Source of the DNA: Odiellus spinosus
Taxonomy: Eukaryota; Arthropoda; Arachnida; Opiliones; Phalangiidae
DNA: 64,000 nucleotides
Direction of reading: 5' to 3'
Assembly: GCA_963920705.1 (NCBI GenBank)
Contig: OY987237.1
Coordinates: forward strand, 8,834,601-8,898,600
Each line of letters opens with the position of its first letter. The stretch's first letter is position 1. Shown here piece by piece: positions 1-54,166 of the stretch. The notes below the pieces were generated by a model that was not told where the DNA came from, did not search any database, and saw only the letters and a list, made by a program, of their open reading frames with translations. The translations under genes were made by a program, and so were the position numbers.

Positions 1-832
1 TTAACTCAAAAGTGCATGTTTAATCTATAATGTGAACGCTACTTTATACATTTTGAAATTGTTACGGTCCCCGGATATTGACAGCAATATTTTTCAAACG
101 TTCCATTTAGATTAAAAGATTAATTAAACGGTTAATATAAAGAGAGCGATTTTAAGTCAACACAATAAAATTTAAGAGCAATTTTGTACTATCGTTAACC
201 GTTAATTACAATAAAAATACGTCAATTTTGAAGTAAAGTTAATATTACACGCCCGATTTGTCGTTAATTTCTCGGGCGAAAACCGGATGTTTAAGTCGAG
301 GTTTAACGAGTTCCCAGGAAGTAATGTACAAGATTTTTAATCGCTAAAGCGCAGCTGTAATTTTTTGTTGTTTATTGCAAGTTAGATGGGCGGACAACTT
401 TTGTACGTAATTTTATATTACCCGTTGATACGCTAGGTTAACTTTTGGGCTAGTAATTTACAATACCGGTATTCTTTTAGTAATAATATTATCGTAGATT
501 CGTAGTCAAAATCGTTAAATTTAAATGTTAAAGAAAATATCTTGTTTCTTTTCTTTTCTTTATCCGCAAGGAAAATGGAGGTATTTAATTTTTCAAGTAT
601 TTTGCTTAAATAATAATAGAATTAACCGCCCCAAAACTGGTCACGGTTATAAAAGCTCTCAAGGTTAAGCGAGAAAACATATTTTCAAACAATTTTTGGT
701 CGGTTTATGTGAACAACGTTAATTTTTTTTAAAGGGAGAATCCGACCTAACTACAACTGATTTTTCTTAACGATTAAATATAGGCGTAATCCATCATCAA
801 AACCTTTTACAAACAAATATTAAACTGAAACG
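1..832. other. AT-rich stretch, no gene seen
   Basis: No reading frame of convincing length or splice-flanked exon was found on either strand. The sequence is AT-rich with short T and A runs and resembles intergenic or intronic DNA. Confidence 0.5.
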
Positions 833-1046
833 AATTTAAAATTTACCCGAAAATAGGCTTAGCTTGATTAATGGCGATCCTGAACTTCTTCGCATTAATG
901 GCTAAGCGACCAATCGAATGTACTTGTAATTCTCATGGAGATCTCGCCTTAACGACAGGTCTTTTCTCATTGGTCGCTGACCCATGGGAAGAAATTCAGG
1001 GTCTCCATGATACAGCTAAGCCTATTTCCGGGAAAGTTTTAAATTT
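833..1046. mobile_element. MITE family A, copy 1
   Basis: The two halves form an imperfect inverted repeat with arms of roughly 80 bp. The left arm begins near AATTTAAAATTTACCCG and the right arm ends near CGGGAAAGTTTTAAATTT. Both arms contain an AATAGGCTTAGCT block and, further in, an AGCGACCAAT block. A second copy lies at 28762-28948. No coding capacity for a transposase exists, so it must have been moved in trans. The short open frame inside it is a by-product of the palindrome. No clear target duplication was identified. Confidence 0.8.
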
Positions 1047-2604
1047 ATTTTTAGTTTAGTATTTTTTACTGGTTAATACGTTTAAAAGTTTTCGTGGTAA
1101 TTCCAATTAGTGAAGTTCAAGTTCAAGTTCAGAACTGGACTCCATAAACTTTAAATCAGGTTCAAAAACTTCAAAGAAATTTCAAGACTAAACAATTTTA
1201 GTGTTGTGTAATGTGTAATTACATTGCTCTCATTTTTTGGTATCTATCTAATTAAGTAATTAATAGCACAATACTTCGACATGTATATGTCTTATGGGCG
1301 ACGCAAAAGTCTAATTCTTGGCCAAACAATCTTAACTACATATAAAAACTATTTAAAATTTTTTCGTAAAATAACAAATTCCAAAAGCGACTTTAAAAAA
1401 TATTCTACGGATATTCTCAGTTACAGCCTTCGAAGAAAACTATATTCCCATAGAAAAATAAGGTTTATAATAGAAATTTGGGTTCCTTTCAAGGTTGATA
1501 AACAGTATTTGATTACGGAAACGAAATAAAATACGAGGATAAATATTGAGGTAGGGGTTGATAGCTGCTGAAGTCAGGAAAAGTGTGAAAAACGAACAAA
1601 ACGTACTTAAACGTTTTGTCGAGAACGTACGAGTCAAATAATTAAATTTATCGTGACTACGTATAATTTTAATTTTTTAAATTGAGTGGAGAAAATTTTA
1701 ACAATGGTATTATTGCTGTTACTTGGAAGAAGATTAAAATCTTAATTTTTCTAGTTATTTTTACGCGAGCCAAATTGAAGGTGTAACAATTAAATATAGT
1801 CAAATTTAATCGAAAATGGAACTAAACTTGACTAACTACGCGGATAATATTTTAAGGTAAAATATTTTATATATTAATTAAAAGTTTTAAAACTAATGTA
1901 TGATGAAAATTCAAATTTTGGTTTAAAATAAATTATTTCGACTGCTAGGCCTAGCTTTCTTTTCTATTAGGTTAAATATTAGTGGCAACACATAAGCTTT
2001 GTGAAAAACCAGTGTTACACTAAATTCTCTATTGTCTATAGAGTAAATGCTTATGGTATCATAGTACCTTCCTTATACATTATCTAATATAAAAATATAT
2101 TAAGACAGAGACCTTTAAAAACTTTCAAGGCAGACGAGTGATTGAGGGAAATTAGAATTTTCAGAAAATGTGCGTGATAACATCATTTTTTAATAAAATT
2201 TGTAGATCCCACCGAAATCTTAACTATCTGACGAAAGAACGGGAATGGTCAGACAATTAGAATTTTATAATATATAAAATAACGGAATAGTAACCATTAA
2301 AAACTAATAGAATTGTTGGTCGTATTTAAAATCATCATGAACAATAGGTTTTTATACTTATTACGTCTATTTTAGGCAATTTGAAATCATAATTCCTTTG
2401 AAAGGAAATCTTATGACGTAAATGTTGCAAAACGTCGTTGTATTTATTCTTCATTATGAGCAGAGTCTTTTCATCTTTAATAATTACAGTTTTAGTTCAA
2501 ATCTATTTCAATTCATAGAACTTTAACAATTAGAAATTACGAAATTGCAACTAATTAAATGCTCCTTTACGTTTAGCGATTTATATACTACGATATAGCC
2601 TATA
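1047..2604. other. Intergenic, no gene seen
   Basis: AT-rich sequence without a recognisable coding exon. A short GTTCAA direct repeat (about three units) sits near 1114-1131. Small open frames here lack any recognisable domain and overlap on both strands. Confidence 0.5.
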
Positions 2605-2665
2605 AAATTTAACACCATGTATTAATCCGCCTCAACTTTTATCTATTTTGCAAACTGAACTTAAA
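2605..2665 (-). repeat. Dispersed repeat family R1, end fragment
   Basis: It contains ATGTATTAATCCGCC, the reverse complement of the family end GCGGATTAATACACAATGTT. It then runs into a segment ending TTTTGCAAACTGAAC that is shared with the fragment at 17225-17290 and, more loosely, with 4815-4885. It looks like the end of a degraded element lying to its left. Confidence 0.55.
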
Positions 2666-2968
2666 CAAAGAATATATACGTAAAGTCTCTTAAAATTTGT
2701 CTCGTCATTTTTATCCCATTAATATTTTTTATCAATGATTGGAATATAAATAATATTAACCAAGATTTTGTTATTTATATAATAACTACATATTCCGGCT
2801 TTAATTAACAGCATAGATAAAGCTAGGCAACCCCTATTTCTACGATTTGTCTATTTAGAGATCAAGGTAGTCTAGCTTTGCCCTTGCAGCAAAAATCAAC
2901 GTGAAATAGACAATACTCGGACTATAATTTTTGCAAGTAATTCTTTAAAAATAGTTGGAACACTGTGT
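2666..2968. other. Intergenic, no gene seen
   Basis: AT-rich spacer between a dispersed repeat end and the ~170-bp tandem array. Nothing else was recognised. Confidence 0.45.
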
Positions 2969-3590
2969 CTATCAGTGGCGGAATAATTTTTAACGAGTGA
3001 CTCATGTTAATTTTATTATTTAAATACTCTACGGAATGCCTACTTTCTAATGGTGCTATCCGTTTATGATAGGTGATAGTATAGAAAAGAAAAGGCCATT
3101 TCAAGATAGGGGTCATTTTTGGATATTTGCTCGATTTCTATCATTGGCGGAATAATCTTTAACGAGTGGCTCACGTCAATTTTTTTATTTGAAATTTATC
3201 TAAGGAATGCCTTCTTTCTAATGGTGCTATCGGTTTATGCCTAGGTGATAGTATAGAAAAGATACGGCCATTTCAAGATAGGGGTCATTTTTGGATATTT
3301 GCTCGATTTCTATCATTGGCGGAATAATCTTTAACGAGTGGCTCGTGTCAATATTATTAATTAAAATTAATCTACGGAATGCCTTCTTTCTAATGGTGCT
3401 ATCGGTTTATGATTTGGTGATAGTAAAGAAGAGATACGGCCATTTCAAGATAGGGGTTATTTTTGGATATTTGTCCGATTTCTATCAGTGGCGGAATAAT
3501 CGTTAACGAGTGGCTCATGTCAATTTTATTATTTTAAATTAGTCTTAGTTAATGCCTAGGCGATAGTAGAAGGGGACGGAATTTAAGATA
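2969..3590. repeat. Tandem repeat, ~170-bp unit, about 3.5 copies
   Basis: The landmark TATCAGTGGCGGAATAAT (or TATCATTGG...) recurs at about 2970, 3139, 3311 and 3483, giving periods of 169-172 bp. Each unit also carries TAACGAGTG, CTTTCTAATGGTGCTATC and GGCCATTTCAAGATAGGGG. The middle units are very similar, while the outer ones are more diverged and the last is truncated. Short open frames on both strands here are products of the repeat. Confidence 0.9.
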
Positions 3591-3724
3591 TATTTTTCCA
3601 TCCACAATAATAAGGTTCCCCAATCTCATTTCGCCTCCATTTATTCCTCCTCCGTACAAATAGTTTCCTAAATTGAAACCTAAACATATACGACCGAAAA
3701 ATTCAATTCAATTTGTATACTAGT
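3591..3724. other. Spacer, no gene seen
   Basis: Short AT-rich spacer between the ~170-bp tandem array and an R1 repeat fragment. Confidence 0.4.
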
Positions 3725-3785
3725 GAATTATGTGGCGGATTTACACACAATATTAAACCCTATAAAAATAAAAGTAGTTTAGAAA
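3725..3785 (+). repeat. Dispersed repeat family R1, start fragment
   Basis: It contains GTGGCGGATTTACACACAAT followed by a TTAAACC...AAAAGTAGTTT segment, shared with copies at 4553, 30084, 38940 and 54563. The conserved end is GCGGATTAATACACAATGTT. Confidence 0.55.
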
Positions 3786-4552
3786 GCATCTCTGGAACAG
3801 GAGCGTATTTTTGTAACCGGATACGACCAGTATAATATTTTATTAAGATTGAAAAAATAGCTTAATATTATACGTCTTAATGACCTAAGAAATTAATTTT
3901 CGCCTCAAAGAATATTTTTCTATAAGACATATCGGTTACCACGTATCTTACGTAAAAATTTATTTTACGCAATTAAATTTAAAGTTTCAATGTCAGCTCA
4001 AAAACTTCCCTTTACACTGCAGCATTAGAGACTACGCCAGAAAAATGATGTTTAAGTCAAGGACAACACTATTAATTTAACATTAGCTTTACCTTAAAGT
4101 GAGGCTCTCACCATTTGTTTTCTCAATGCGCCTAAGGATTATATTTTCAAATTTATTTTACTATTAAAACGCCATAAACAGAACTATATACCTCAAAAAT
4201 ATATAGGCAAGTTTTGCGGATATATTACGTAGTTTATTTCTAGAAACTTATCGAGAAATTCTAGATTAAGTATACTGTCACGAAAAAGATTTTAAGAATA
4301 AAACTGTAGACTCATCAACAGCGACCGTAGTGATGACACTTAATTATAAACCCTTAATTACTTATTAGGGGTGGTGGGTTCTTCTATGTTCATATAGAAC
4401 TTTTTGCGCTGAACAACAATTTGGCGAAAACATTATGTAAAATATTTCGATAAATACTTGGAAATTTAATTAACATATCTCAATCATTAATATATTCAAA
4501 TCGCATATTCAACAATTTTTATCTGTTCAAAAGTGTGCAAAGGAGAGAAAGA
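3786..4552. other. Intergenic, no gene seen
   Basis: AT-rich sequence between two members of the R1 repeat family. No exon, RNA gene or further repeat was recognised. Confidence 0.45.
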
Positions 4553-4885
4553 CGTGGCGGATTAATACACAATGTTAAATCTAATAGAAAAACGTAGTTG
4601 TATAGTCAACGAGTTTATAATTTAAAAATTCTCCAAATTTAATCAATCGTTAAAATCATTTGACACCGTTTCAATACACGGATAATTAAAAATAAATGAA
4701 ATAAAAATAACTCCGTATTCGCGTTTCACACTTCCTTTAAAGATAGTGGTAAATAATTATTCGAAGAAAAGGAAAATAAAGGGTTACAAGAGCAGTTAGG
4801 AACGATCACAATTTTCCATATGAAGTTTATCATTGTGTACCAATCCGCATCAATGTTTTGAACCTTTTGCGAACTCATTTTGTTT
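4553..4885. mobile_element. R1-family MITE with paired inverted ends
   Basis: The left end GGCGGATTAATACACAATG is matched in inverted orientation on the right by CATTGTGTACCAATCCGC at about 4832-4849. This makes a terminal-inverted-repeat element of roughly 300 bp, and the only R1 copy in the window with both ends facing each other. The inside is non-coding. The target duplication is not clear. Confidence 0.6.
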
Positions 4886-5060
4886 TGAAGAATACTTCGG
4901 TTAAATGACTTCGAATAATGGCGTAACAACGTCGTATAACACGCAGTTTTGCATCAGCCAAAAGAAAGGAGGATAATTATCTCAAGTTAACGTATAATTT
5001 AAATCGGCTTTGCGTGAAACTTGGTTCATCTTTCCCGACTTTAGTCTATTCCGGCTTAAC

Positions 5061-5090
5061 TAAAAAGTACTAAAAAGTACTAAAAAGTAC
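5061..5090. repeat. Microsatellite, 10-bp unit x3
   Basis: TAAAAAGTAC is repeated three times without interruption. Confidence 0.95.
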
Positions 5091-5308: not shown

Positions 5309-5758
5309 GAAGGGTGCCCATAATTATTACAAGTCCTAAATGTAACGAGAGTTTGACCTTCAAGATTAGCACATAACCATGAATCGAAAGAGAGAAACAC
5401 TCTGACCGTCGACTATAGTAGCAAATATAGGCTAAATGTCTAAACCAAACCCAGGGTTTTAGAAAGTAGACAAGGGCTAGACGTTTAGTGTTAAAGTGAG
5501 AATATAGCCTGACAAATAATGTTATCTATCGATTTCTTATATTTTATATATTCCTAAACCACTAGTAAAATAATTACAACACGATATAAAGCTAGAGACC
5601 AACTTTCAGCTTAACCGGAACCCGGGATATAGGCTTAAAAATCATCCATAATAGGTAGTTAACGAGCCTAATTTGAAACCGTTGAATAAAGCGCTCTCTT
5701 GTGATTTGCCGACGACCTGTTAGCTACGAGATTTTGGACTCAATGAATTATCGTTCAT

Positions 5759-5794
5759 TATTATTAATTATTATTAATTATTATTAATTATTAT
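5759..5794. repeat. Microsatellite, 10-bp AT-only unit
   Basis: TTATTAATTA is repeated about three and a half times. Confidence 0.9.
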
Positions 5795-6377: not shown

Positions 6378-6460
6378 CTTAGGACTATTAAGAATATATA
6401 AAGATGAAGAACAAAAGCAGACGTTCATAAGCATCCTCTGATGGCAAACATCAAAACTAA
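6378..6460. mobile_element. MITE family B, solo end next to transporter exon 1
   Basis: The segment GATGAAGAACAAAAGCAG...CATCCTCTGATGGCAAAC matches one arm of family B (compare CATCCTCTAACGGCAAAC, inverted, at 15620-15796). No opposing arm was seen. An upstream in-frame ATG at 6441 falls inside this repeat, which is one reason to prefer the ATG at 6507 as the transporter start. Confidence 0.6.
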
Positions 6461-6506
6461 ATGTCAATTTTCTCAAATATATTTCTCGTACTTGTATAAT
6501 TTCAGT

Positions 6507-7137
6507 ATGTCTTATAAAGAGACCCAGCCCGAGTTCGCCTTATCGCTGCAATCAAAATTCGTAGTTCGACACTTATCATCATCGTCGGGTTACTTAACCA
6601 ATGTTCTCAGTCATTCAAACAGCGATCAGAGCTTACCGGTCAACATGGACCGCACTCATCCCGACACGAGACATCGTCGCCTATCTTGGCCATTCTTCGA
6701 CTCGCAAACCTCTTTAGAACGACAAGAAAAATCTTCCTCAACCACCCAACTTCATTTAACCGGCTCAGATCCCGAACGCGATAACCACTCTGGCATCTAC
6801 TGCAGCGCGGAAGACATTTACATCAAAAAACAGAGATCGGTCAGTTTTTGCCCAGAGACTAATTTCGCGCGCTTACCGGGTAGTAAGAGTGAACGTTCAA
6901 AGTCAACAGTATCAGCTCCCGGGGCCTTGCCCAATGGGGATAACGCGAACAAAGTGTTTGTTAGGAATGTTATGATCCCACCCGATGGCGACTGGGGTTG
7001 GACCGTGGCAACTGGTGGATTTTTTCTATCGTTTCTTACACTCGGATTACTTAGAAGTTACGGAATTGTCTTTACGTCACACGCTAGGAGTGGATTTTAT
7101 CTATACAGCGTGGCGCATTCGGTGTTATTGTGTTCCG
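6507..7137 (+). CDS. Transporter coding exon 1
   Basis: The exon encodes residues 1-210 plus one base of codon 211. It begins one base after the acceptor TTTCAG (6500-6505), which implies an upstream non-coding exon. The N-terminal ~155 residues are polar with many Ser/Thr and two basic-Ser patterns, RRLSW and KKQRSVSF, of the type basophilic kinases phosphorylate. The PPDGDWGW motif opens helix 1. The donor is G|GTGAAT at 7138, phase 1. The frame runs on without a stop to 7169, but those extra codons are intronic under this model. Confidence 0.85.
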
Positions 7138-10100
7138 GTGAATATATATTTTTGAACTTGCTTATATAGAATTTTTAGGAAACTAGTGAATTTAAATTCC
7201 CTTATACCTAGTCAATTAAATTTTGAAGCCCCGTTAAAATTCACCTACTCCTTACTCCCTGGGGCCTCCACTGAATTTTCCCATACATTTATAAATATAT
7301 AATTTTTACTCGCTTTATTGATTATTACAGATATTTGGCAATTCTACCTATATTATATTATATCTAAAGTTGGTAACACATGTTAAAGCTCCGATCTATT
7401 TTACCTCTATAACTCAACAAATCAAAAGCAAGCTATTCACGTTAATTACAACTCGAGGTGAAACAATGAAATGTAGTTTCAAGAACTTTTAATTGAACAC
7501 CTTGACCTGTCTTATTTGCATAAATTTAATGACAGGCCGCTGATGAACCAAATAATAAAATTAAGAAGGGTCTAATACTTGGAGATGATTTTAAAATTGT
7601 ATACACGCGAATATACACGTGAAAAAGTGTAAAAACAACATATTTAATAGTTTATCATGAGTGTAAAAACGTGCCCGTAAAGATTAATATTTATTCTAAA
7701 AAAATATCGTTGGGAAAAAATTGATTAATTAATTTAAATTAGTAATAGGAGTTTTTAAAACGCGGCACGAGGCGACAAGGACCGGTTTTAGCTAGTCTCA
7801 AGGCTTCTTATCTAACATGTATAACGAGAATCATTCCACAAAAACAATTAAAATCATTTTCAATAGCGTTACGCGTCAATGATAGGCTGGAAAAATTTTA
7901 TCTCAGCACCCGTTGATTGCAACTAGTACAAAGTTACACTTATTAAAGTATTCTTATCCTTGTGACGTATAACGAATGGAATGAAAGTACGGTATACCGA
8001 TCATAAATGTAGTAGATGTCCTTAATAAACGAACCAGGCGTCACTTACTCGAGTACTATGCCCTTTTTATATAACGCAATTATGTTAATATTACTTATAC
8101 AACGTCCTTAGTCTATTTCTTTGTATACATTTTGTTTTTATTATACGTGAATATAGTGTCTTTGAACGAATACATCTGCTTTCAAATTGGGCCAAGGAAA
8201 TCGGCTCTAACGGGTAGTGTTTTGGTCCTGATCTCTTATCTGGTCAGTTTCTCGTCAGTCTCTCTACCGGCCTATATATTTACTCTAGCAATCATCCCAG
8301 GTATGATATGATATGATACACAAACGTTACGTAATTTCGTATTTAGAGGCGTAAGCTGATGATAATTTTAAATACGTAACTCCTATGTCTATGTAACCCC
8401 CTAAATATTCTTAATTATATGGCGTTTAATTGCGCGTATTTTAAAATACGTCGCCGTATTAATCTTAATCCGACCAAAAATAAATAGATCAAAAAGTCTA
8501 CTACAAGACCACCGTGATAAAACGACCTCTGTGGGGGTTAAAAATCCTTTCGTAAAATTAGTTGCATACCCTTTGCCTATTCGCCGGAGTAAAAACGTAG
8601 GAGTATCGAGACGCGCTTTTAAATAGTTGGCGTATGCGGGCGCGGCGAGAAGAGAGTTAGTTTTTCCTCACTATGCCTTTGACAGCATAGATGGGCGTGC
8701 TTCACGGAGTTTAGTACAGTGGAAGGCTCGCGAAGCGCTTCGCTAGCCTTCCACTGTACTACACTCCGTGAAGCACGCCCATCTATGTTTGACAGACCGT
8801 GACCCTTAAGGCTCGAGATATTCCCGGGGAAAGTATCGAAATGGAATTTAATTGTCTGGTTATTTCACGTGTCTTTAAAGGATGTGCTTAATTTCTACGG
8901 ACAGAGGATGAACGGCCGGTCTAGTTCTAGTTTATTTGTCATTTTATTTATTTTTAATTCGAGATTTCCTGTTGGCGTTACTGTAGAATTTTTCTAGATA
9001 GAATAAAGAGATACACACGCATAAAGAGGCGTCGTTTTGCGACGCCCACTAACCTGATTTACATTAAATTTGAATAGGCTTAAGTTCTCTCTTGATTGAA
9101 GATCACATATTTCCCAAAGAAACAAATCCTAAACTTCTTAGTATGAAAAATAAATCCCATGGTAATGCTTGTGTTTGCCTAATTTCGGCACCTCGAACCC
9201 TAACTTTGCTCTGACGTAATTAATGTCATCATCAACTTATGGCGTAAGATAAATACGAATACAATCACATCACACTGTCTTACGTTGTTAAGTTTTGTTA
9301 ATCTAAGAAAACTGAAGGGATTATTTGTCTCAAACAGGTTTCGGTACATCGTTATGCTTGGTGGCTACTCAACATATCATCAGACAGTACTTCTATCATA
9401 AAAGGTTAATAGCATTAACCTTGAGTTCGTCGGGGTCAGCAGCCGGGTTATTATTATGGCCATTATTTTTGGACTTTTTCGCCACGCAATACAGCGTTCC
9501 TTGGACGTTTTTCCTAGTCGGAGTTGGCAGTACTCTAACAGTTATATGCGCTTTGCTCTACCGACCAGCTATCAAGTAATTTGACGTCATCTTAATCTTA
9601 GGACAGAGGTTTACCTCAAAGGAAGCGTGAAAAGAAAAATGAATTTATTTATTTTTATCTATTCTACTATATTAAAAATAAGACTTGTTCGCATATTGAA
9701 ACATTCGGGAAAAGTATTTGAATTGTGGAAAAGATTCTGATTTTGAGGCTTCCAATTTTTTGTAGAATTCAGAGACATTTCTTGAATGTTTTACTACACA
9801 AACAAGTCTTATTTTTAGAAGCAAAAATCTATAAAAAGATCAGTTCATTTTTCTCCTCCCTTTAATTATATTTATACAGGATACCTTTTATATTATGGGA
9901 TCTTCAAAACCCTATTCGGTTAATTTTTACCAAGCAATTTTTGCAGTGAAAAGCTCGCGGAACAATTTTGTTTTTGCAGCGAAAATAACTTGGTGAAAAG
10001 TAACCTTAAACGTGATGGTCCCTAATTTTCATCCTAAAAAATGTGTGTACTAAATGCGTATACGTATTTTCCAGATATTACAAAAAATACTTCATCAGGT

Positions 10101-11425
10101 ACGAAATCAGGGCTGACCAGGACGCGGACGAAATTCACAGGAAACTCGACCAATTCTTGACGAACGACGAACCCGTACCCTCTCAAAAATCCTTAATACG
10201 TCAAATCAGTCAACTAGTTCGTCTTCCAAGTTTTTCCATCCTTCTAATCACAGTCAGCTTATCCAACACGGGGAGTACCCTGGCAGTTTACTTAATCCCA
10301 ATCTATATAATACGTATTGGTCGAACCCTCTACCACGCCAAATTAGCCCTGATATGTTTGGCCATTGGGGACATCGTTGGTCGATTGGCTTGCGCCCGTT
10401 GCTCCAAGTTGAGCGCCAAAAAACGGACTGTGGTCATAGTCGCGTGTTCAATCGTTTCGGGGGTCAGCTTGATTTGCTTGACATACATGGCAAGAACCGC
10501 CTTCTACGCCACCGTTATCTTAACCACGCTGTTCGGACTGACTAGTAGTAACCAATGGAATTCTCTCTACTTGCAAACTGTTATTAAGAACAACGGCCAG
10601 ATTGACGAACGGGCGATGTTGCCCGCAGTGGGAATGGGAAATTTGTCCCAAGGATTGGCTCTCATTCTAGCCACAGCCTTAATAGGTAAAGTTCAATTTT
10701 GGTATTAAATTAGCTATTTCGGCGCTGAAATAGCAGATATATTTACGAAATTACTCGTGTGCCAATTAACTAAAGTTCTAAAATATACCTTATTTTAGAA
10801 AATGGTAATTTACGTGAAAATTTACCACGCAATTTACTGGTATTAAGAAAATATTTGAATTTCTTTCATATTTATAACGTCCTTAACTACGCCAAACACG
10901 GAATAATTATTGTCAAGAAGACTATTCAGATAGTTAAGCGTAGTTTCCGCTAAACGCTCCGTTACGAGCGCTAGTGGAAACTATGTAATATCATGCATTT
11001 TAATCCAAATTAAATTTAAATTATTAAGTACTATTTTGATAATTTACGCTTAAATTAAAAGGGTAAATTAATGATTTAGAACTCAAATCCCAAACAGAGT
11101 CAACTGACTCAGTGGGATGCAAATTAAATGGATATGCATTTCAAATTAGTTCGGAAATTCCTAACGTTAAGCGCTGATTACGTAAATACTCTAGAGTTCG
11201 GGTCACTTTAAAATTGCTCAAAGGTTTACGACTTAAGATTCTCATCTCTATAGAGTTAAACAAAGCGTTTTATGTTTTTTATTATTCTAAATAGATTTCC
11301 TGGCAGAAACAATGGAATCATTCGGCAGGGTTCATTTTCTGTATTGTATGGGAGCGTTCTCGTGCATCGCATCGGTCATTATCATATCCTCATCCATAAC
11401 CAATTGTAAAAGAGCAATTACCTAA
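6507..11425 (+). CDS. SLC16/monocarboxylate-transporter-like MFS protein, five coding exons
   Basis: Joined exons 6507-7137, 8157-8300, 9338-9575, 10075-10685 and 11295-11425 give 1,755 nt, exactly 584 codons plus TAA, with GT/AG at every junction and matching phases. The family moves monocarboxylates or related small molecules across the plasma membrane using 12 helices. Visible hallmarks are DGDWGW at residues 160-165 before helix 1, RQYFYHKRL then a Gly/Ser-rich GSAAG stretch at about 274-295 (helix 5 region), and a D437-x3-R441 pair in the helix 8 region that resembles the conserved Asp/Arg pair of MCT1. About 155 hydrophilic, Ser-rich residues precede helix 1. A lysine corresponding to the MCT1 helix 1 Lys was not seen, so the substrate may not be lactate. 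The start at 6507 is chosen because a strong acceptor (TATAATTTCAG) ends at 6505. The family is confident; the specificity is unknown. Confidence 0.88.
7138..8156 (+). other. Transporter intron 1
   Basis: About 1.0 kb from the donor GTGAAT to an acceptor ending AATATAG at 8156. The sequence is AT-rich and no MITE with clear inverted ends was recognised. A further small exon here cannot be excluded, but the phases of exons 1 and 2 match directly. Confidence 0.7.
8157..8300 (+). CDS. Transporter coding exon 2
   Basis: 144 nt, phase 1 in and phase 1 out. It encodes the end of helix 2, the loop with GPRK (equivalent to the FGPR/FGCR loop between helices 2 and 3 in this family) and helix 3 (ALTGSVLVLISYLVSF), ending LAIIPG. 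The donor is CAG|GTATGA at 8301. Spacing from helix 1 to the GPR loop is close to that of MCT1, which supports the join. Confidence 0.82.
8301..9337 (+). other. Transporter intron 2
   Basis: About 1.04 kb, from GTATGA to TCAAACAG. It starts with a short GATAT-type microsatellite (8303-8317) and contains the 92-bp foldback element at 8696-8787. Confidence 0.75.
8688..8795. mobile_element. Perfect foldback element with 8-bp target duplication
   Basis: 8696-8787 is a 92-bp, almost exact palindrome. It starts CATAGATGGGCGTGC and ends GCACGCCCATCTATG, and the arms read through to the centre GCGAAGCGCTTCGC with only a few mismatches. It is flanked on both sides by TTTGACAG (8688-8695 and 8788-8795), a perfect 8-bp duplication typical of hAT and P superfamily insertions. 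The seven terminal bases CATAGAT are the same as those of the P-like element at 52822. It has no coding capacity and would extrude a strong hairpin. Confidence 0.9.
9338..9575 (+). CDS. Transporter coding exon 3
   Basis: 238 nt, phase 1 in and phase 2 out. It covers helices 4 to 6. FGTSLCLVATQHIIRQYFYH is followed by KRLIALTLSSSGSAAG, the family signature between helices 4 and 5 (YF-x2-KR-x-LA-x-G-x-A-x-AG type), and then two hydrophobic segments. The acceptor is CAAACAG at 9337 and the donor AA|GTAATT at 9576. Confidence 0.88.
9576..10074 (+). other. Transporter intron 3
   Basis: 499 nt from GTAATT to TATTTTCCAG. It contains a MITE-like inverted repeat at 9674-9816. Confidence 0.75.
9674..9816. 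mobile_element. Small MITE in transporter intron 3
   Basis: The left end AAAAATAAGACTTGTT is matched perfectly in inverted orientation by AACAAGTCTTATTTTT at the right end. Weaker pairing continues inward through an AACATTC / GAATGTT block. The length is about 143 bp and it is non-coding. No clear target duplication was seen. Confidence 0.75.
10075..10685 (+). CDS. Transporter coding exon 4
   Basis: 611 nt, phase 2 in and phase 1 out, encoding residues 338-541. It holds the polar central loop between helices 6 and 7 (about residues 339-385, with many Lys, Asp and Glu), then helices 7 to 11. D437 and R441 lie in AIGDIVGR in the helix 8 region. The acceptor is TTTTCCAG at 10074 and the donor ATAG|GTAAAG at 10686. 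Confidence 0.9.
10686..11294 (+). other. Transporter intron 4
   Basis: 609 nt from GTAAAG to TTCTAAATAG. It contains a 45-bp imperfect palindrome at 10940-10984. Confidence 0.75.
10940..10984. repeat. Imperfect palindrome in transporter intron 4
   Basis: GTAGTTTCCGCTAAACGCTC is mirrored by GAGCGCTAGTGGAAACTAT around the centre CGTTAC. It may be a very short foldback insertion. The bases flanking it do not form a direct repeat. Confidence 0.7.
11295..11425 (+). CDS. Transporter coding exon 5 and stop
   Basis: 131 nt encoding the last hydrophobic helix (roughly FLYCMGAFSCIASVIIISSS) and a short cytoplasmic tail NCKRAIT. It ends at TAA 11423-11425. The acceptor is AAATAG at 11294. The short tail contrasts with the long N-terminal tail. 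The exon is identified by matching phase, the position of the helix, and the polyadenylation signal just downstream. Confidence 0.82.
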
Positions 11426-45510: not shown

Positions 45511-45908
45511 GGCTTTTCCAAGCTTTATACGCTCAAAGAAAAAAAAGGACATTAGGTAAAGATTCCACAGAATCGTTCAAGCGAAGTTGGCGGCTTCCCT
45601 TTTTTTTTCTACATATACTTTTACTTTTTAGATGTTATACTCATAGCCTTTTGTTTTAAAGAAAATTATATACGATATTTTTAAATGCAAATTTTTTAAA
45701 GGGTTTATTACACTATTATTCAGTTAATTGTAAGTCATTACTTAACGAGGGCTGGTGGGTTTTAACTATTAATAGGAAAGACCTGAAGTATATAATAGAT
45801 TAAGAAAGGTCACACTAAACTATGCAATTGTCATAAAGGTCAATCCACCTTAAGAAAAGGCGTGGGTAAAAATAGCGTAAAGTTACAGTAAATTGAAACC
45901 GAAAATTT
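45511..45908. other. Spacer, no gene seen
   Basis: AT-rich spacer between a poly-T run and the 31-bp minisatellite. Confidence 0.4.
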
Positions 45909-47128
45909 ACAATTCCTTAGCACAGGCCCAACCAAATCTACAATTCCTTAGCACAGGCCCAACCAAATCTACAATTCCTTAGCACAGGCCCAACCAAATC
46001 TACAATTCCTTAGCACAGGCCCAACCAAATCTACAATTCCTTAGCACAGGCCCAACCAAATCTACAATTCCTTAGCACAGGCCCAACCAAATCTACAATT
46101 CCTTAGCACAGGCCCAACCAAATCTACAATTCCTTAGCACAGGCCCAACCAAATCTACAATTCCTTAGCACAGGCCCAACCAAATCTACAATTCCTTAGC
46201 ACAGGCCCAACCAAATCTACAATTCCTTAGCACAGGCCCAACCAAATCTACAATTCCTTAGCACAGGCCCAACCAAATCTACAATTCCTTAGCACAGGCC
46301 CAACCAAATCTACAATTCCTTAGCACAGGCCCAACCAAATCTACAAATGCTTAGCACAGGCCCAACCAAATCTACAAATGCTTAGCACAGGCCCAACCAA
46401 ATCTACAAATGCTTAGCACAGGCCCAACCAAATCTACAAATCCTTAGCACAGGCCCAACCAAATCTACAAATCCTTAGCACAGGCCCAACCAAATCTACA
46501 AATCCTTAGCACAGGCCCAACCAAATCTACAAATGCTTAGCACAGGCCCAACCAAATCTACAAATCCTTAGCACAGGCCCAACCAAATCTACAAATCCTT
46601 AGCACAGGCCCAACCAAATCTACAAATCCTTAGCACAGGCCCAACCAAATTACAAATCCTTAGCACAGGCCCAACCAAATCTACAAATCCTTAGCACAGG
46701 CCCAACCAAATCTACAAATCCTTAGCACAGGCCCAACCAAATTACAAATCCTTAGCACAGGCCCAACCAAATTACAAATCCTTAGCACAGGCCCAACCAA
46801 ATCTACAAATCCTTAGCACAGGCCCAACCAAATCTACAAATCCTTAGCACAGGCCCAACCAAATTACAAATCCTTAGCACAGGCCTAACCAAATCTACAA
46901 ATCCTTAGCACAGGCCCAACCAAATCTACAAATCCTTAGCACAGGCCCAACCAAATCTACAAATCCTTAGCACAGGCCCAACCAAATCTACAAATCCTTA
47001 GCACAGGCCCAACCAAATCTACAAATCCTTAGCACAGGCCCAACCAAATCTACAAATCCTTAGCCAACGCCCAACCAAATCTACAAATCCTTAGCCAACG
47101 CCCAACCAAATCTACAAATCCTTAGCAA
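45909..47128. repeat. 31-bp minisatellite, about 39 copies
   Basis: The unit is 31 bp, built of CCTTAGCACAGGCCCAACC and AAATCTACAATT. The first ~14 copies are identical, carrying ACAATTCC at the junction. Copies 15-17 carry ACAAATGC, as does one later copy. The rest carry ACAAATCC, with several 30-bp units missing a C (AAATTACAAA) and one CCTAACC variant. The last copies have AGCCAACGCCC. No spacers exist, so this is not a CRISPR array. No gene is encoded. Confidence 0.97.
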
Positions 47129-47744
47129 TTCTCGAACAAATCCTGTATTTTGGAAAGAATTTCAAACCTCATACGCAGATATTTCAAATTTCGGATCCCT
47201 CGACTTACACTTAAAAGTCAACAATTCAAGAAGGTTGCAGGTCTACATTATTACTTATATTACACAATTAAAGCATTGGGGTTCCACAGTGGCTCTCACC
47301 TGGTAGTACGAGTAAAACCGAGAAACTGCGCCTTTAATGTTGGTCTAGTGATTTTTCTATCTAATATTTAACTTGAAAGTGTTTCCGAGCCGGAAATAAT
47401 TGGATTTATTTTATGTGACCGGAATTGAATGGGTCTTACAGACAATTGAATTTCTTTTTGAAAAATCTTTTTTCTGATTGAAATTCTCCAAAGATTTTTA
47501 TATATTTTTGGATGTGAATAAAAAGTTAAGGTAATATATTTTAATGAAATTCAAATTTGAAAGAAAATGGATGTTGCATGGAATAAATATCAATCTCGAA
47601 GATATTTATGGTAATCGTGTTTGTGCAGAATTCATTTTAAATTTCTATTCTAAAAATATGATCATAGAACATTTCTACATGATCTAATATAATCATGGAA
47701 TAATACAGCAAGGGAAAGTTATAAAGTATAAATGAAAACTGAAT
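47129..47744. other. Spacer, no gene seen
   Basis: AT-rich DNA between the minisatellite and the satellite S array. A 73-codon frame at 47150 has no recognisable domain. Confidence 0.4.
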
Positions 47745-47749
47745 TATTT

Positions 47750-50265
47750 CTAATTAATCAAGGTAGGACATAGGACTAATTAAAAACCCCTTTCTAGGAA
47801 TGGGTACGTAGGAATAATTGTTGTAAATGTGATCCGTTTAAGACTACTAATGTAGGAACCATTTTTCAATCCCCAACAAATTGAAAAACAGTCACTAATT
47901 ATTTGAAATTAATTAAAGTAGGAAATAGGACCAATTAAAATCATTTTCTAGGAATGGGTATGTAGGAATAACTGTTGTAAATAGGATCTGTTTAAGACTA
48001 CTAATGTAGAAACCATTTTCCAATCCCCAACAAATTGAAAAACAGTCACTAATTATTTGGAATTAATTAAAGTAGTAAATAGGACTAATTAAAATCATTT
48101 TCTAGGAAAGGGTATGTAGGAATAATTGTTGTAAATAGGATCTGTTTAAGACTACTAATGTAGAAACCATTTTCCAATCCCCAACAAATTGAAAAACAGT
48201 CACTAATTATTTGAAATTAATTATAGTAAAAAAATAGGACTAATTAAAATCATTTTATAGGAATGGGTATGTAGGAATAATTGTTGTAAATAGGATCTGT
48301 TTAAGACTACTAATGTAGAAACCATTTTCCAATTCCCAACAAATTGAAAAACAGTCACTAATTATTTGGAATTAATCAAAGTAGGAAATAGGACTAATTA
48401 AAATCATTTTCTAGGAAAGGGTATGTAGGAATAATTGTTGTAAATAGGATCTGTTTAAGACTACTAATGTAGAAACCATTTTCCAATCCCCAACAAATTG
48501 AAAAACAGTCACTAATTATTTGGAATTAATTAAAGTAGGAAATAGGACTAATTAAAATCATTGTCTAGGAAAGGGTATGTAGGAATAATTGTTGTAAATA
48601 GGATCTGTTTAAGACTACTAATGTAGAAACCATTTTCCAATCCCCAACAAATTGAAAAACAGTCACTAATTATTTGGAATTAACCAAAGTAGGAATTAGG
48701 ACTAATTAAAATCATTTTCTAGGAAAGGGTATGTAGGAATAATTGTTGTAAATAGGATCTGTTTAAGACTACTAATGTAGAAACCATTTTCCAATCCCCA
48801 ACAAATTGAAAAACAGTCACTAATTATTTGAAATTAATTATAGTAAAAAAATAGGACTAATTAAAATCATTTTATAGGAATGGGTACGTAGGAATAATTG
48901 TTGTAAATAGGATCTGTTTAAGACTACTAATGGAGAAACCATTTTCCAATTCCCAACAAATTGAAAAAACAGTCACTAATTATTTGGAATTAATTAAAGT
49001 AGGAAATAGGACAAATTAAAATCATTTTCTAGGAATGGGTATGTAGGAAAGATTGTTGTAAATAGGATCTGTTTAAGACTACTAATGTAGAAACCATTTT
49101 CCAATTCCCAACAAATTGAAAAACAGTCACTAATTATTTGGAATTAATTAAAGTAGGAAATAGGACAAATTAAAATCATTTTCTAGGAATGGGTATGTAG
49201 GAAAGATTGTTGTAAATAGGATCTGTTTAAGACTACTAATGTAGAAACCATTTTCCAATCCCCAACAAATTGAAAAACAGTCACTTAATATTTGGAATTA
49301 ATCAAAGTAGGAAATAGGACTAATTAAAATCATTTTCTAGGAAAGGGTATGTAGGAATAATTGTTGTAAATAGGATCTGTTTAAGACTACCTAATGTAGA
49401 AACCATTTTCCAATCCCCAACAAATTGAAAAACAGTCACTAATTATTTGGAATTAACCAAAGTAGGAAATAGGACTAATTAAAATCATTTTCTAGGAATG
49501 GGTATGTAGGAATAATTGTTGTAAATAGGATCTGTTTAAGACTACTAATGTAGAAACCATTTTCCAATCCCCAACAAATTGAAAAACAGTCACTTAATAT
49601 TTGGAATTAATCAAAGTAGGAAATAGGACTAATTAAAATCATTTTCTAGGAAAGGGTATGTAGGAATAATTGTTGTAAATAGGATCTGTTTAAGACTACT
49701 AATGTAGAAACCATTTTCCAATCCCCAACAAATTGAAAAACAGTCACTAATTATTTGGAATTAACCAAAGTAGGAAATAGGACTAATTAAAATCATTTTC
49801 TAGGAATGGGTATGTAGGAATAATTGTTGTAAATAGGATCTGTTTAAGACTACCTAATGTAGAAACCATTTTACAATCCCCAACAAATTGAAAAACAGTC
49901 ACTAATTATTAGGAATTAATCAAAGTAGGAAATAGGACTAATTAAAATCATTTTCTAGGAATGCGTATGTAGGAATAATTGTTGTAAATAAGATCTTTTT
50001 AAGACTACTAATGTAGAAACCATTTTCCAATTCCCAACAAATTGAAAAACAGTCGCTAATTATTTGGAATTAAAATAGGAAATAGGTCTAATTAAAACCA
50101 CTTTCTATGAATGAGCACGTAGGGATAATTGTTGTAAATGTGATATGATTAAGACTACCAATGTAGAAACCCCTTTCCAATCTCCTCCATCCTCCATTGA
50201 AAAACAGTAACTAATTGGAATTAACCAAAGTAGGAAATAGGACTAATTAAAACCACTTATGAACC
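47750..50265 (+). repeat. Satellite S, main array, 154-bp monomer, about 16 copies
   Basis: The landmark AAACCATTTTCCAATCCCCA recurs at about 47857, 48009, 48163, 48317, 48472 and onward to 50168, with a period near 154 bp. All monomers are in one orientation. Each contains AAATTGAAAAACAGTCAC, TAATTATTTGGAATTAA, AGGACTAATTAAAATCATT and GGAATAATTGTTGTAAATAG. Central units are nearly identical while the first and last two are diverged. Several multi-monomer blocks are duplicated (see findings). Confidence 0.95.
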
Positions 50266-52813: not shown

Positions 52814-52821
52814 GTTGTGTA

Positions 52822-52853
52822 CATAGATATCGTATATATAACTGGCTAGATAC
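52822..52853 (+). repeat. Left terminal inverted repeat of the P-like element
   Basis: 32 bp, starting CATAGATATC and ending GCTAGATAC. It matches the inverted right end with no mismatch. Confidence 0.95.
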
Positions 52854-52897
52854 ATTTCCCTGGGTTAGGCCCGAGGAGTAAAACGCGGAGGGGACAA

Positions 52898-52949
52898 ATA
52901 GCAGACGACGGCTATTATCTGGGGAAAAATCTGAACAGCGCCATCTATA
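52898..52949 (+). repeat. Left subterminal inverted block of the P-like element
   Basis: ATAGCAGACGACGGCTAT and GGGGAAAAATCTGAACAGCG, then CCATCTATA, match the right block (54030-54092) in inverted order. The right block has about 11 extra bases in the middle. By analogy with P elements, a subterminal repeat could be where the THAP protein or transposase binds. Confidence 0.85.
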
Positions 52950-53078
52950 TTAGATACCTGGAACCTCTAATTAAGTGCTTTTTCAAAAACCCGCGGGAAT
53001 TTTTGTTTCTTTTGTAAAGAAACTATAAGAAATAAAGCTCGGCTATTTTTGAAGCAAGTGTTTTTTTTTTAATACAAA

Positions 53079-53391
53079 ATGGTTAAAACCTGTTCGTTTT
53101 CACATTGCCGTAATAAGTCAACCACTAGAAAAGAAATATCTTTTCACATGTATGAACAAAACTACTCAAGAATTAAGTAAATTAATAACTAATATCATGC
53201 AAATTTATAGATTTCCCATATCCAACCCGGAATTACATGCCAAATGGATTGAGGCTGTTGATTTAGATGATTTTAGGCCTAATTCCAATTCCTTCATTTG
53301 CAGCGAACATTTTTTGGAAAGTGATACCGAAAGTGAACCGAAATGGCGTTCACCAATCTTCCGGCTAGGCGGCTACAGCTTGAGACGATAA
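53079..53391 (+). CDS. THAP-domain protein of the P-like element, two exons
   Basis: Exons 53079-53149 and 53211-53391 join across a 61-nt intron (CAT|GTATGA to TTATAG|ATTT) into 252 nt, that is 83 residues and a stop. Splicing is inferred because it brings together the halves of a THAP zinc-binding domain: C-x4-C at the start (TCSFSHC), ISFH-IFP, then HAKW with the invariant Trp, and C-x2-H in ICSEHF. Unspliced, the first frame stops early. THAP domains bind specific DNA, in P elements at sites in the element ends. The protein ends shortly after the domain. A terminal AVPxxF-type motif is not clear, although RSPIF lies nearby. No catalytic region follows in frame before the stop. It may be a DNA-binding-only repressor or a decayed transposase N-terminus. 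Confidence 0.75.
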
Positions 53392-53400
53392 CTAAATTGA

Positions 53401-53667
53401 AATTATTCTTATTCTAGAAAGTTAACTGATTTAAATGAGATCAGCAATCAACAACTGCCACTTAATTATGCAGCAAACGTTTTTATTGTGCGAGATAAGA
53501 TAGAGACAGAAAAATTGATATCTATTTTTGATACAGAGCCTTTCATGACCGATTCAGACGACATAAGTTACAATAACAAAAATAGTTTCCCTCTCTTGAT
53601 GGTGGATGGCGGTAAAGCAAATATTTTTTATTCCGCGGGTAATTCAAACTTTATTCTTCAACATTGA
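53401..53667 (+). pseudogene. Continuation of the THAP frame beyond two in-frame stops
   Basis: In the same frame as the THAP exon, after TAA (53389) and TGA (53398), the sequence stays open to TGA at 53665-53667. It encodes about 88 residues rich in Asp, Asn and Ile, including EKLISIFDTEPFMTDSDD. The stretch just before, ending TTATTCTTATTCTAG at 53417, looks like a splice acceptor, but no suitable donor is left. No transposase motif was recognised. It is likely a remnant of the original longer coding region that was cut short by mutation or internal deletion. Confidence 0.45.
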
Positions 53668-54029
53668 ATCTATTTGAAAAGGATTACGCTTCCCTTGTCA
53701 TGCAAAGTCAAAATATTCACCCATTTTGCTCGTCTTGTAGTCAGTTCTAGAACTTGTATCGTAATTGTAAGCAGAGTTAAACTGAAATTCCATTATAGAG
53801 AAGGCCAAGGGTTAGCGAACCAAATAATATTTATTGATTTAAATAATATATATGTTATATTTACCTTTTAAAAATTGATGGATCATGTTAAAAACAACTT
53901 TTTTAACACGTTTTGAGCCGATTTCATTCTCTTCTGTCGAATAATATTAAAAAAAAAAAAAAAAAAAAACATTTTCTGGCCGAAGCGGGAAAATTAAACT
54001 TCTCGCATTTTGAGCTTTCCATTTTCGGG

Positions 54030-54092
54030 TATAGATGGCGCTGATCTGATTTTTCCCCAGCATTGTAGGTCTCCATAGCCGTAGTCTGCTAT
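54030..54092 (-). repeat. Right subterminal inverted block of the P-like element
   Basis: TATAGATGGCGCTGATCTGA, TTTTTCCCCAGC and ATAGCCGTAGTCTGCTAT mirror the left block. It lies 34 bp inside the right terminal repeat, against 44 bp on the left side. Confidence 0.85.
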
Positions 54093-54126
54093 CTATACCT
54101 CCCGTATTTTCCCTCGATTTAATACG

Positions 54127-54158
54127 GTATCTAGCCAGTTATATATACGATATCTATG
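54127..54158 (-). repeat. Right terminal inverted repeat of the P-like element
   Basis: 32 bp, starting GTATCTAGCC and ending GATATCTATG. It is the exact reverse complement of the left end. Confidence 0.95.
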
Positions 54159-54166
54159 GTTGTGTA

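Follow-up and report, generated by a model that had tools for sequence, protein, structure and literature searches.

Among the closest described systems are P elements of Drosophila melanogaster with internal deletions, KP among them, in which the P-type ends, the 8-bp target duplication and the THAP start are kept, the transposase middle is lost and a few deletion forms are present in many copies. According to PMC4938643, KP lacks positions 809–2561 and encodes 207 residues, of which 199 are transposase. P elements of Anopheles gambiae are described in PMC1562414 with ends of 27–31 bp, 8-bp duplications and non-autonomous families beside the P masters. For zebrafish, deleted P-like copies with 8-bp duplications are described in PMC7776569, which also gives the P-element plan (ends, unequally spaced internal sites and subterminal repeats) and names the catalytic residues of the P transposase. 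Here, we report an element from a 64,000-nucleotide stretch of the Odiellus spinosus genome (assembly GCA_963920705.1, contig OY987237.1, positions 8,834,601 to 8,898,600; hereafter the window). The element occupies window positions 52822-54158 (1,337 bp). It is very probably non-autonomous, having arisen by internal deletion from a cut-and-paste transposon of the P superfamily (THAP9-like) with a length of 5.08 kb.

The locus resembles the deleted Drosophila elements in all the features listed above, and differs from KP in keeping 62 transposase residues in comparison to 199, with neither the C-terminal THAP box nor anything beyond it. It shares the end length, the 8-bp duplications and the presence of non-autonomous families beside P masters with the A. 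gambiae P elements and their miniature inverted-repeat transposable elements (MITEs). However, the central part of the latter is unrelated to P, whereas here it consists of parental sequence save for a 10-nt private change and small indels. The zebrafish elements are similar in their deleted copies and 8-bp duplications but have 13-bp ends and 12-bp internal repeats, in contrast to the 32-bp ends and long subterminal similarity found here. Galileo, another member of the P superfamily, is comparable with respect to a block shared by the two ends, here at 69 and 79 nt from them, but the Galileo ends are very long and internally repetitive.

Ends, copies and full-length relative

A first-pass annotation of the window had claimed perfect 32-bp inverted termini and an exact 8-bp target duplication (GTTGTGTA) on both sides, and both were confirmed, with 32/32 complementary positions. 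When inverted repeats within 8 kb were sought in 20 first-order Markov windows of equal size, the longest perfect repeat was 14-18 nt, and none in the 20 windows was flanked by an 8-bp duplication. The next longest inverted pairs of the real window measured 28 nt, in A/T runs, and 27 nt, within a tandem array; one further pair, of 25 nt at 8686-8787, had an exact 8-bp duplication. The inverted similarity of the ends extended to ~139 nt at 72% identity. The AGCAGACnACGGCTAT (AGCAGAC) block was spaced unequally, at 79 nt from the left end and 69 nt from the right, and the spacing of the other shared blocks was nearly equal (CTGGGGAAAAATC at 98/99 nt and CAGCGCCATCTATA at 115/116 nt, where a 14-bp subterminal inverted repeat starts). 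The window copy combined ends of the ~31-bp type, the 8-bp duplication, subterminal repeats and unequal internal-site spacing. The layout resembles the P-element plan, and we infer from position which block would be bound.

The genome (443,074,358 bp in 286 contigs) was searched with the left 287 bp of the element, and the best 40 of 202 candidates, the window copy included, were scored; they were chosen by likeness to the left end of the window copy and were 98-100% identical to it. All 39 other copies were bounded by the 32-bp ends, both exact in 37/39 and with one mismatch in L016 and L038, and an exact 8-bp duplication was found in 38/39. Two of the copies (L012 and L020) represent one duplicated locus with a common duplication and flanks. 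The target sites preferred G at position 1 (28/37) and C at position 8 (23/37), with L020, L025 and L037 left out of this tally. A search with the exact 32-bp end, which the first-pass annotation had suggested, gave 151 matches (74 + 77) in comparison to 0 and 0 for the backwards control, and therefore roughly 75 elements with exact ends are expected. Among the matches listed (the first 100 of 151), 96 formed 48 facing pairs and four were unpaired, as counted by eye; 46 of these pairs were spaced by 1,027-1,659 bp, and the remaining two by 2,403 bp (L047) and 7,262 bp (L037). The many near-identical copies support the earlier suggestion of a recent insertion.

The 2,403-bp copy retained a THAP9_C-bearing stretch, which was used as a query and gave 96 matches, leading to contig C17 (C17:614300-621300), where PF21787 matches were also located. 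At this locus, L048, lies an element of 5,077 bp whose two ends are exact and which is flanked by the duplication GTCACATC. Its open reading frames (ORFs) matched Tnp_P_element helix-turn-helix (HTH), TNP-like RNaseH_N, GBD, RNaseH_C, THAP9_C and THAP. A model with six GT...AG introns (61, 361, 238, 66, 66 and 267 nt) gave an open transposase of 934 residues with the six domains in P order and a Lys/Glu/Leu-rich stretch N-terminal to the HTH domain. The P-superfamily architecture (THAP, HTH, RNase H split by a GTP-binding domain, and a C-terminal domain) was present in L048 and not in the window copy. A coiled-coil/leucine-zipper dimerisation region and GTP-dependent transposition are further traits of the superfamily. 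The model matched the solved P transposase 6p5a (phmmer, E 8.4e-22), and the catalytic residues given in PMC7776569, D230, D303 and E531, aligned to D, D and E, the positions being counted by hand with chain numbering taken as equal to residue numbering. The named relatives of the RNase H ORF were largely animal THAP9 or THAP-type proteins, with THAP9 proteins as the closest named ones; the closest of all 46 relatives was an unnamed protein (78% identical). These matches, together with the shared exact ends and the 8-bp duplications, bear out the assignment to the P superfamily and the existence of a full-length relative encoding a P-type transposase.

Among the best four C-terminus loci besides L047 (of the 96 matches), only that on C17 was full-length. 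The other three (L049-L051) were ~94% identical and 5'-truncated, matching the parent only from ~3203 on (93.7-94.5% DNA identity; C-termini 94-96% identical at the protein level). Their right ends had 2-3 mismatches and no left end was found upstream; downstream, L049 carried a separate end of the left type with one mismatch. Further full-length copies may be present among the remaining C-terminus matches. As a separate observation, L048 seems to have inserted into an ORF that, judged by eye, resembles a reverse transcriptase. The P/THAP9 RNase H profile PF21787 gave 386 candidates in the genome, at least 150 of them over the cut-off, and matched 0/14 control genomes. P-type transposases are very numerous in this genome.

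Several points weigh against a derivation of the window element from such a transposon. The full-length coding capacity of L048 depends on the hand-made six-intron model. Its 3' part is only ~92-95% identical to class A, the deletion form of the window copy (blastn, gaps counted), and L048 is therefore a close relative, not necessarily the actual source. One copy (L025) has no matching duplication, and the facing-pair count covers the first 100 of the 151 end positions. The derivation is a reading of the genomic sequence.

Deletion forms and the THAP remnant

Mapped on L048 (parental) coordinates, the 40 copies fell into seven forms (Table 1). The window copy belongs to the commonest, class A, in which parent 1-520 is joined to 4313-5077, so that both ends are kept; an internal-deletion origin comparable to that of KP, as proposed in the first-pass annotation, is borne out by this structure. 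One junction 21-mer was common to 16/16 class-A copies, and the deletion therefore most simply arose once and then multiplied. Divergence from the class consensus was 0-0.45% in 13/16 class-A copies, and mean pairwise divergence was 0.44% in class A (13/16 copies), 0.56% in class B (9/10) and 0.82% in class C (7/7), in a sample that leans young because the copies were picked for likeness to the window copy.

Removal of the predicted 61-nt intron, with GT kept in 40/40 copies and AG in 39/40 (the exception being L047), gave 83 codons in the window copy. The product matched the Pfam THAP profile (49.7 bits, E 6.5e-13) over positions 1-62 of 87 only and THAP1 (2ko0; phmmer, E 5.2e-12), in comparison to 58.6 bits over profile positions 1-85 for the complete THAP of the family, as found in other copies. 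No match for the 83-residue protein was found among ~5.8 billion proteins. The earlier claim of a THAP domain held for the C2CH motif joined over the intron and for the 83 codons with a stop, but not for a full domain. The C-terminal AVPTIF-type box is lost in class A (16/16 copies), and the product is therefore a truncated THAP with its own tail. This tail is peculiar to the window copy, because a private replacement (CCGAAAGTGA for TTGTCC), located just before the class-A junction, shifts the frame. In 13/15 of the remaining class-A copies, the product has 74 residues and terminates in IVHRNGVHQSSG; that of L031 has 90 residues, and L046 has a stop after 55. The 10-for-6-nt change resembles the outcome of a template switch in gap repair.

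The sequence that follows the stop, which reads RRLQLETITKLKLF in another frame, was considered as a frame-shifted THAP end. Joining it with X raised the Pfam coverage to 1-80 of 87 with a gain of just 2.1 bits, and the idea was rejected, as L047 and L048 show the true ending and place this sequence in the 3' portion of the full-length element. The same portion, beyond the stop of the transposase model, contains an 88-codon open frame with no Pfam match (window 53401-53664; L048 reverse complement 5521-5784), which is present in the window copy and likewise in L047 and L048.

Table 1. Features of the window copy (window positions) and deletion forms among the 40 scored copies (L048 positions)
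Feature	Position	Strand	Basis or remark
Left target-site duplication GTTGTGTA	52814..52821	.	Exact match to 54159-54166
Left 32-bp terminal inverted repeat	52822..52853	+	32/32 complementary to 54127-54158
Left subterminal block AGCAGACnACGGCTAT, candidate THAP/transposase site	52900..52915	+	Inverted-repeat pair; role suggested by position only
Left subterminal block CTGGGGAAAAATCnGAnCAGCGCCATCTATA, including 14-bp inverted repeat	52919..52949	+	Inverted-repeat pair
THAP exon 1, ATG to donor	53079..53149	+	ORF starting at 53079
Predicted 61-nt intron, GT...AG	53150..53210	+	Identical in 36/40 copies
THAP exon 2: C-x2-H ligands, private tail outside the parental frame, stop	53211..53391	+	Pfam match, reading frame
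Private replacement CCGAAAGTGA for TTGTCC, net +4 nt, frame shift	53327..53336	+	1/41 elements compared
Class-A deletion junction, GC microhomology	53346..53347	+	~3.8 kb of parent (521-4312) gone
Kept 3' part of parent (from ~4314)	53348..54126	+	Lies 3' of parent 4119, the stop of the transposase model; ORFs tested gave no Pfam match
Right copy of CTGGGGAAAAATCnGAnCAGCGCCATCTATA block (complement)	54030..54060	-	Inverted-repeat pair
Right copy of AGCAGACnACGGCTAT (complement)	54075..54090	-	Inverted-repeat pair
Right 32-bp terminal inverted repeat	54127..54158	-	32/32 complementary to 52822-52853
Right target-site duplication GTTGTGTA	54159..54166	.	Exact match to 52814-52821
Class A	1-520 joined to 4313-5077		16/40, among them the window copy; additional changes in L025 and L029
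Class B	1-696 to 4634, ~41 nt between		10/40
Class C	1-443 to 4518		7/40
Class D	1-603 to 4561		2/40
Class E	1-818, 3532-3793, then 4634 on		2/40; first junction as in L047
Class F	1-787 to 4679		2/40: L036, L037 (L037 split by nested element)
L047	1-818 to 3532		1/40; 2,403 bp, THAP9_C domain kept

By-product, repressor or host gene

For the internally deleted derivative, the following course would account for the data. A P-type transposase would act in trans on the ends and subterminal sites, excising and reinserting the short copies. The deletions would result from incomplete gap repair after excision, leaving short filler and microhomology, and some of the deletion forms would have been amplified afterwards. 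The THAP remnant would then be a leftover of the deletion, a truncated and probably unstable DNA-binding fragment, and it looks like a by-product rather than a new host gene.

The alternative that survives best, though we consider it quite improbable, is the KP-like self-regulator that the first-pass annotation had also suggested as possible, in which the THAP-only protein of the copy or its class occupies the ends, represses transposition and in this way favoured its own spread. The KP protein is reported as a repressor in PMC4938643, and the C2CH motif is intact in 13/16 class-A copies, but the box is missing in all 16. Moreover, class C was amplified too, although its 7/40 copies are without the final zinc ligands (the last C and H of the C-x2-H pair). 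In all 40 copies, parent ~819-3531 is gone, which comprises the region just after THAP and the modelled HTH and RNase H exons. KP keeps a dimerisation region after THAP, in contrast to the window copy with its 62 parental residues. Among other forms, the ATG, C2CH, GT/AG and an AIPSK box were kept in 13/40 copies (nine of class B, L010, L036, L037 and L038), which would encode a complete 83-residue THAP if the next intron is retained, and a KP-like effect is better sought in these than in the window copy. Repression by the THAP peptide of the window copy appears unlikely; any regulation by this copy is more likely to occur through competition for transposase.

The shared THAP exons were compared among 39 copies, without L020 and with class C up to position 444 only, and contained 22 distinct variants, of which 19 were nonsynonymous, two synonymous and one a stop. 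Through these variants the start codon is lost in L027 and zinc cysteines are lost in L017 and L029. The expected synonymous share was 23% (p 0.14, two-sided, low power), and there was no sign of purifying selection at this low power. This tally speaks against the self-regulator and also against a host gene domesticated from a P element, which the first-pass annotation had allowed for and to which we assign a negligible probability. The THAP frame is indeed open once the intron is removed, but the mobile-element ends and duplication are intact, near-identical copies are numerous, and the window copy carries a private frame-shifting change. The purifying selection and immobility of a domesticated THAP gene were not observed; the window copy is KP-like in origin and not domesticated. 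Duplications of 8 bp are also made by hAT elements. It is extremely improbable that this is a THAP-bearing element from a different superfamily (Kolobok or hAT): THAP domains occur in Kolobok transposases too, but the Kolobok copies described have TTAA duplications (both PMC6004289) in contrast to the 8 bp found here in 38/39 other copies, and L048 matches the P-type HTH, RNase H, GTP-binding and THAP9_C models.

The element, an internally deleted P derivative, is of an ordinary kind and has been resolved well, and the derivatives form a useful natural series. Classes with half, most or all of the THAP domain share the same ends in a genome with an intact-looking full-length relative, and this set makes it possible to ask directly if deleted P elements depend on the residual THAP peptide for their spread, or if being short with intact ends is enough. 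According to PMC12393704, P elements with internal deletions emerged within generations and are considered to have replaced the full-length ones; a shutdown by deletion derivatives is proposed there for experimental Drosophila populations. By analogy, it is conceivable, though rather doubtful, that this genome is late in a recent P invasion, with an intact-looking autonomous copy outnumbered by deletion derivatives that parasitise and shut down the invasion, some of them restraining the transposase with a complete THAP-only protein (83 residues, AIPSK box). If true, such a shutdown would be seen outside the experimental Drosophila model.

Other sequences in the window and the genome

A second inverted-repeat element of 102 bp was located at window 8678-8795. 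It has 25-bp perfect arms starting CATAGATGGGCG, is flanked by exact TTTGACAG duplications and has the terminal CATAGAT in common with the P element; it may be a P-type MITE. In the viral_contigs collection, no match was found for the end, the protein, the subterminal block or the arm of this second element. The genome_contigs collection gave none for the element end, and the phage records none for the element. These misses say little, because the collections are viral or prokaryotic by description.

No Rfam match was obtained for the window at gathering thresholds. Large tandem arrays lie near the P element at 45903-47127 (31-bp unit x 39.6) and 47742-50252 (154-bp unit x 16.3). Exon-like ORFs at 6408-7166 (no Pfam match) and 10016-10705 (weak MFS_2 match below the cut-off) perhaps belong to a transporter gene. 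Elsewhere in the genome, the class-F copy L037 (L037/L052, C7:13714862-13722123) is split by a nested element of ~6 kb with ~590-bp inverted repeats at a duplicated TTAA, the ORFs of which match the P2X7 receptor intracellular domain PF20478.
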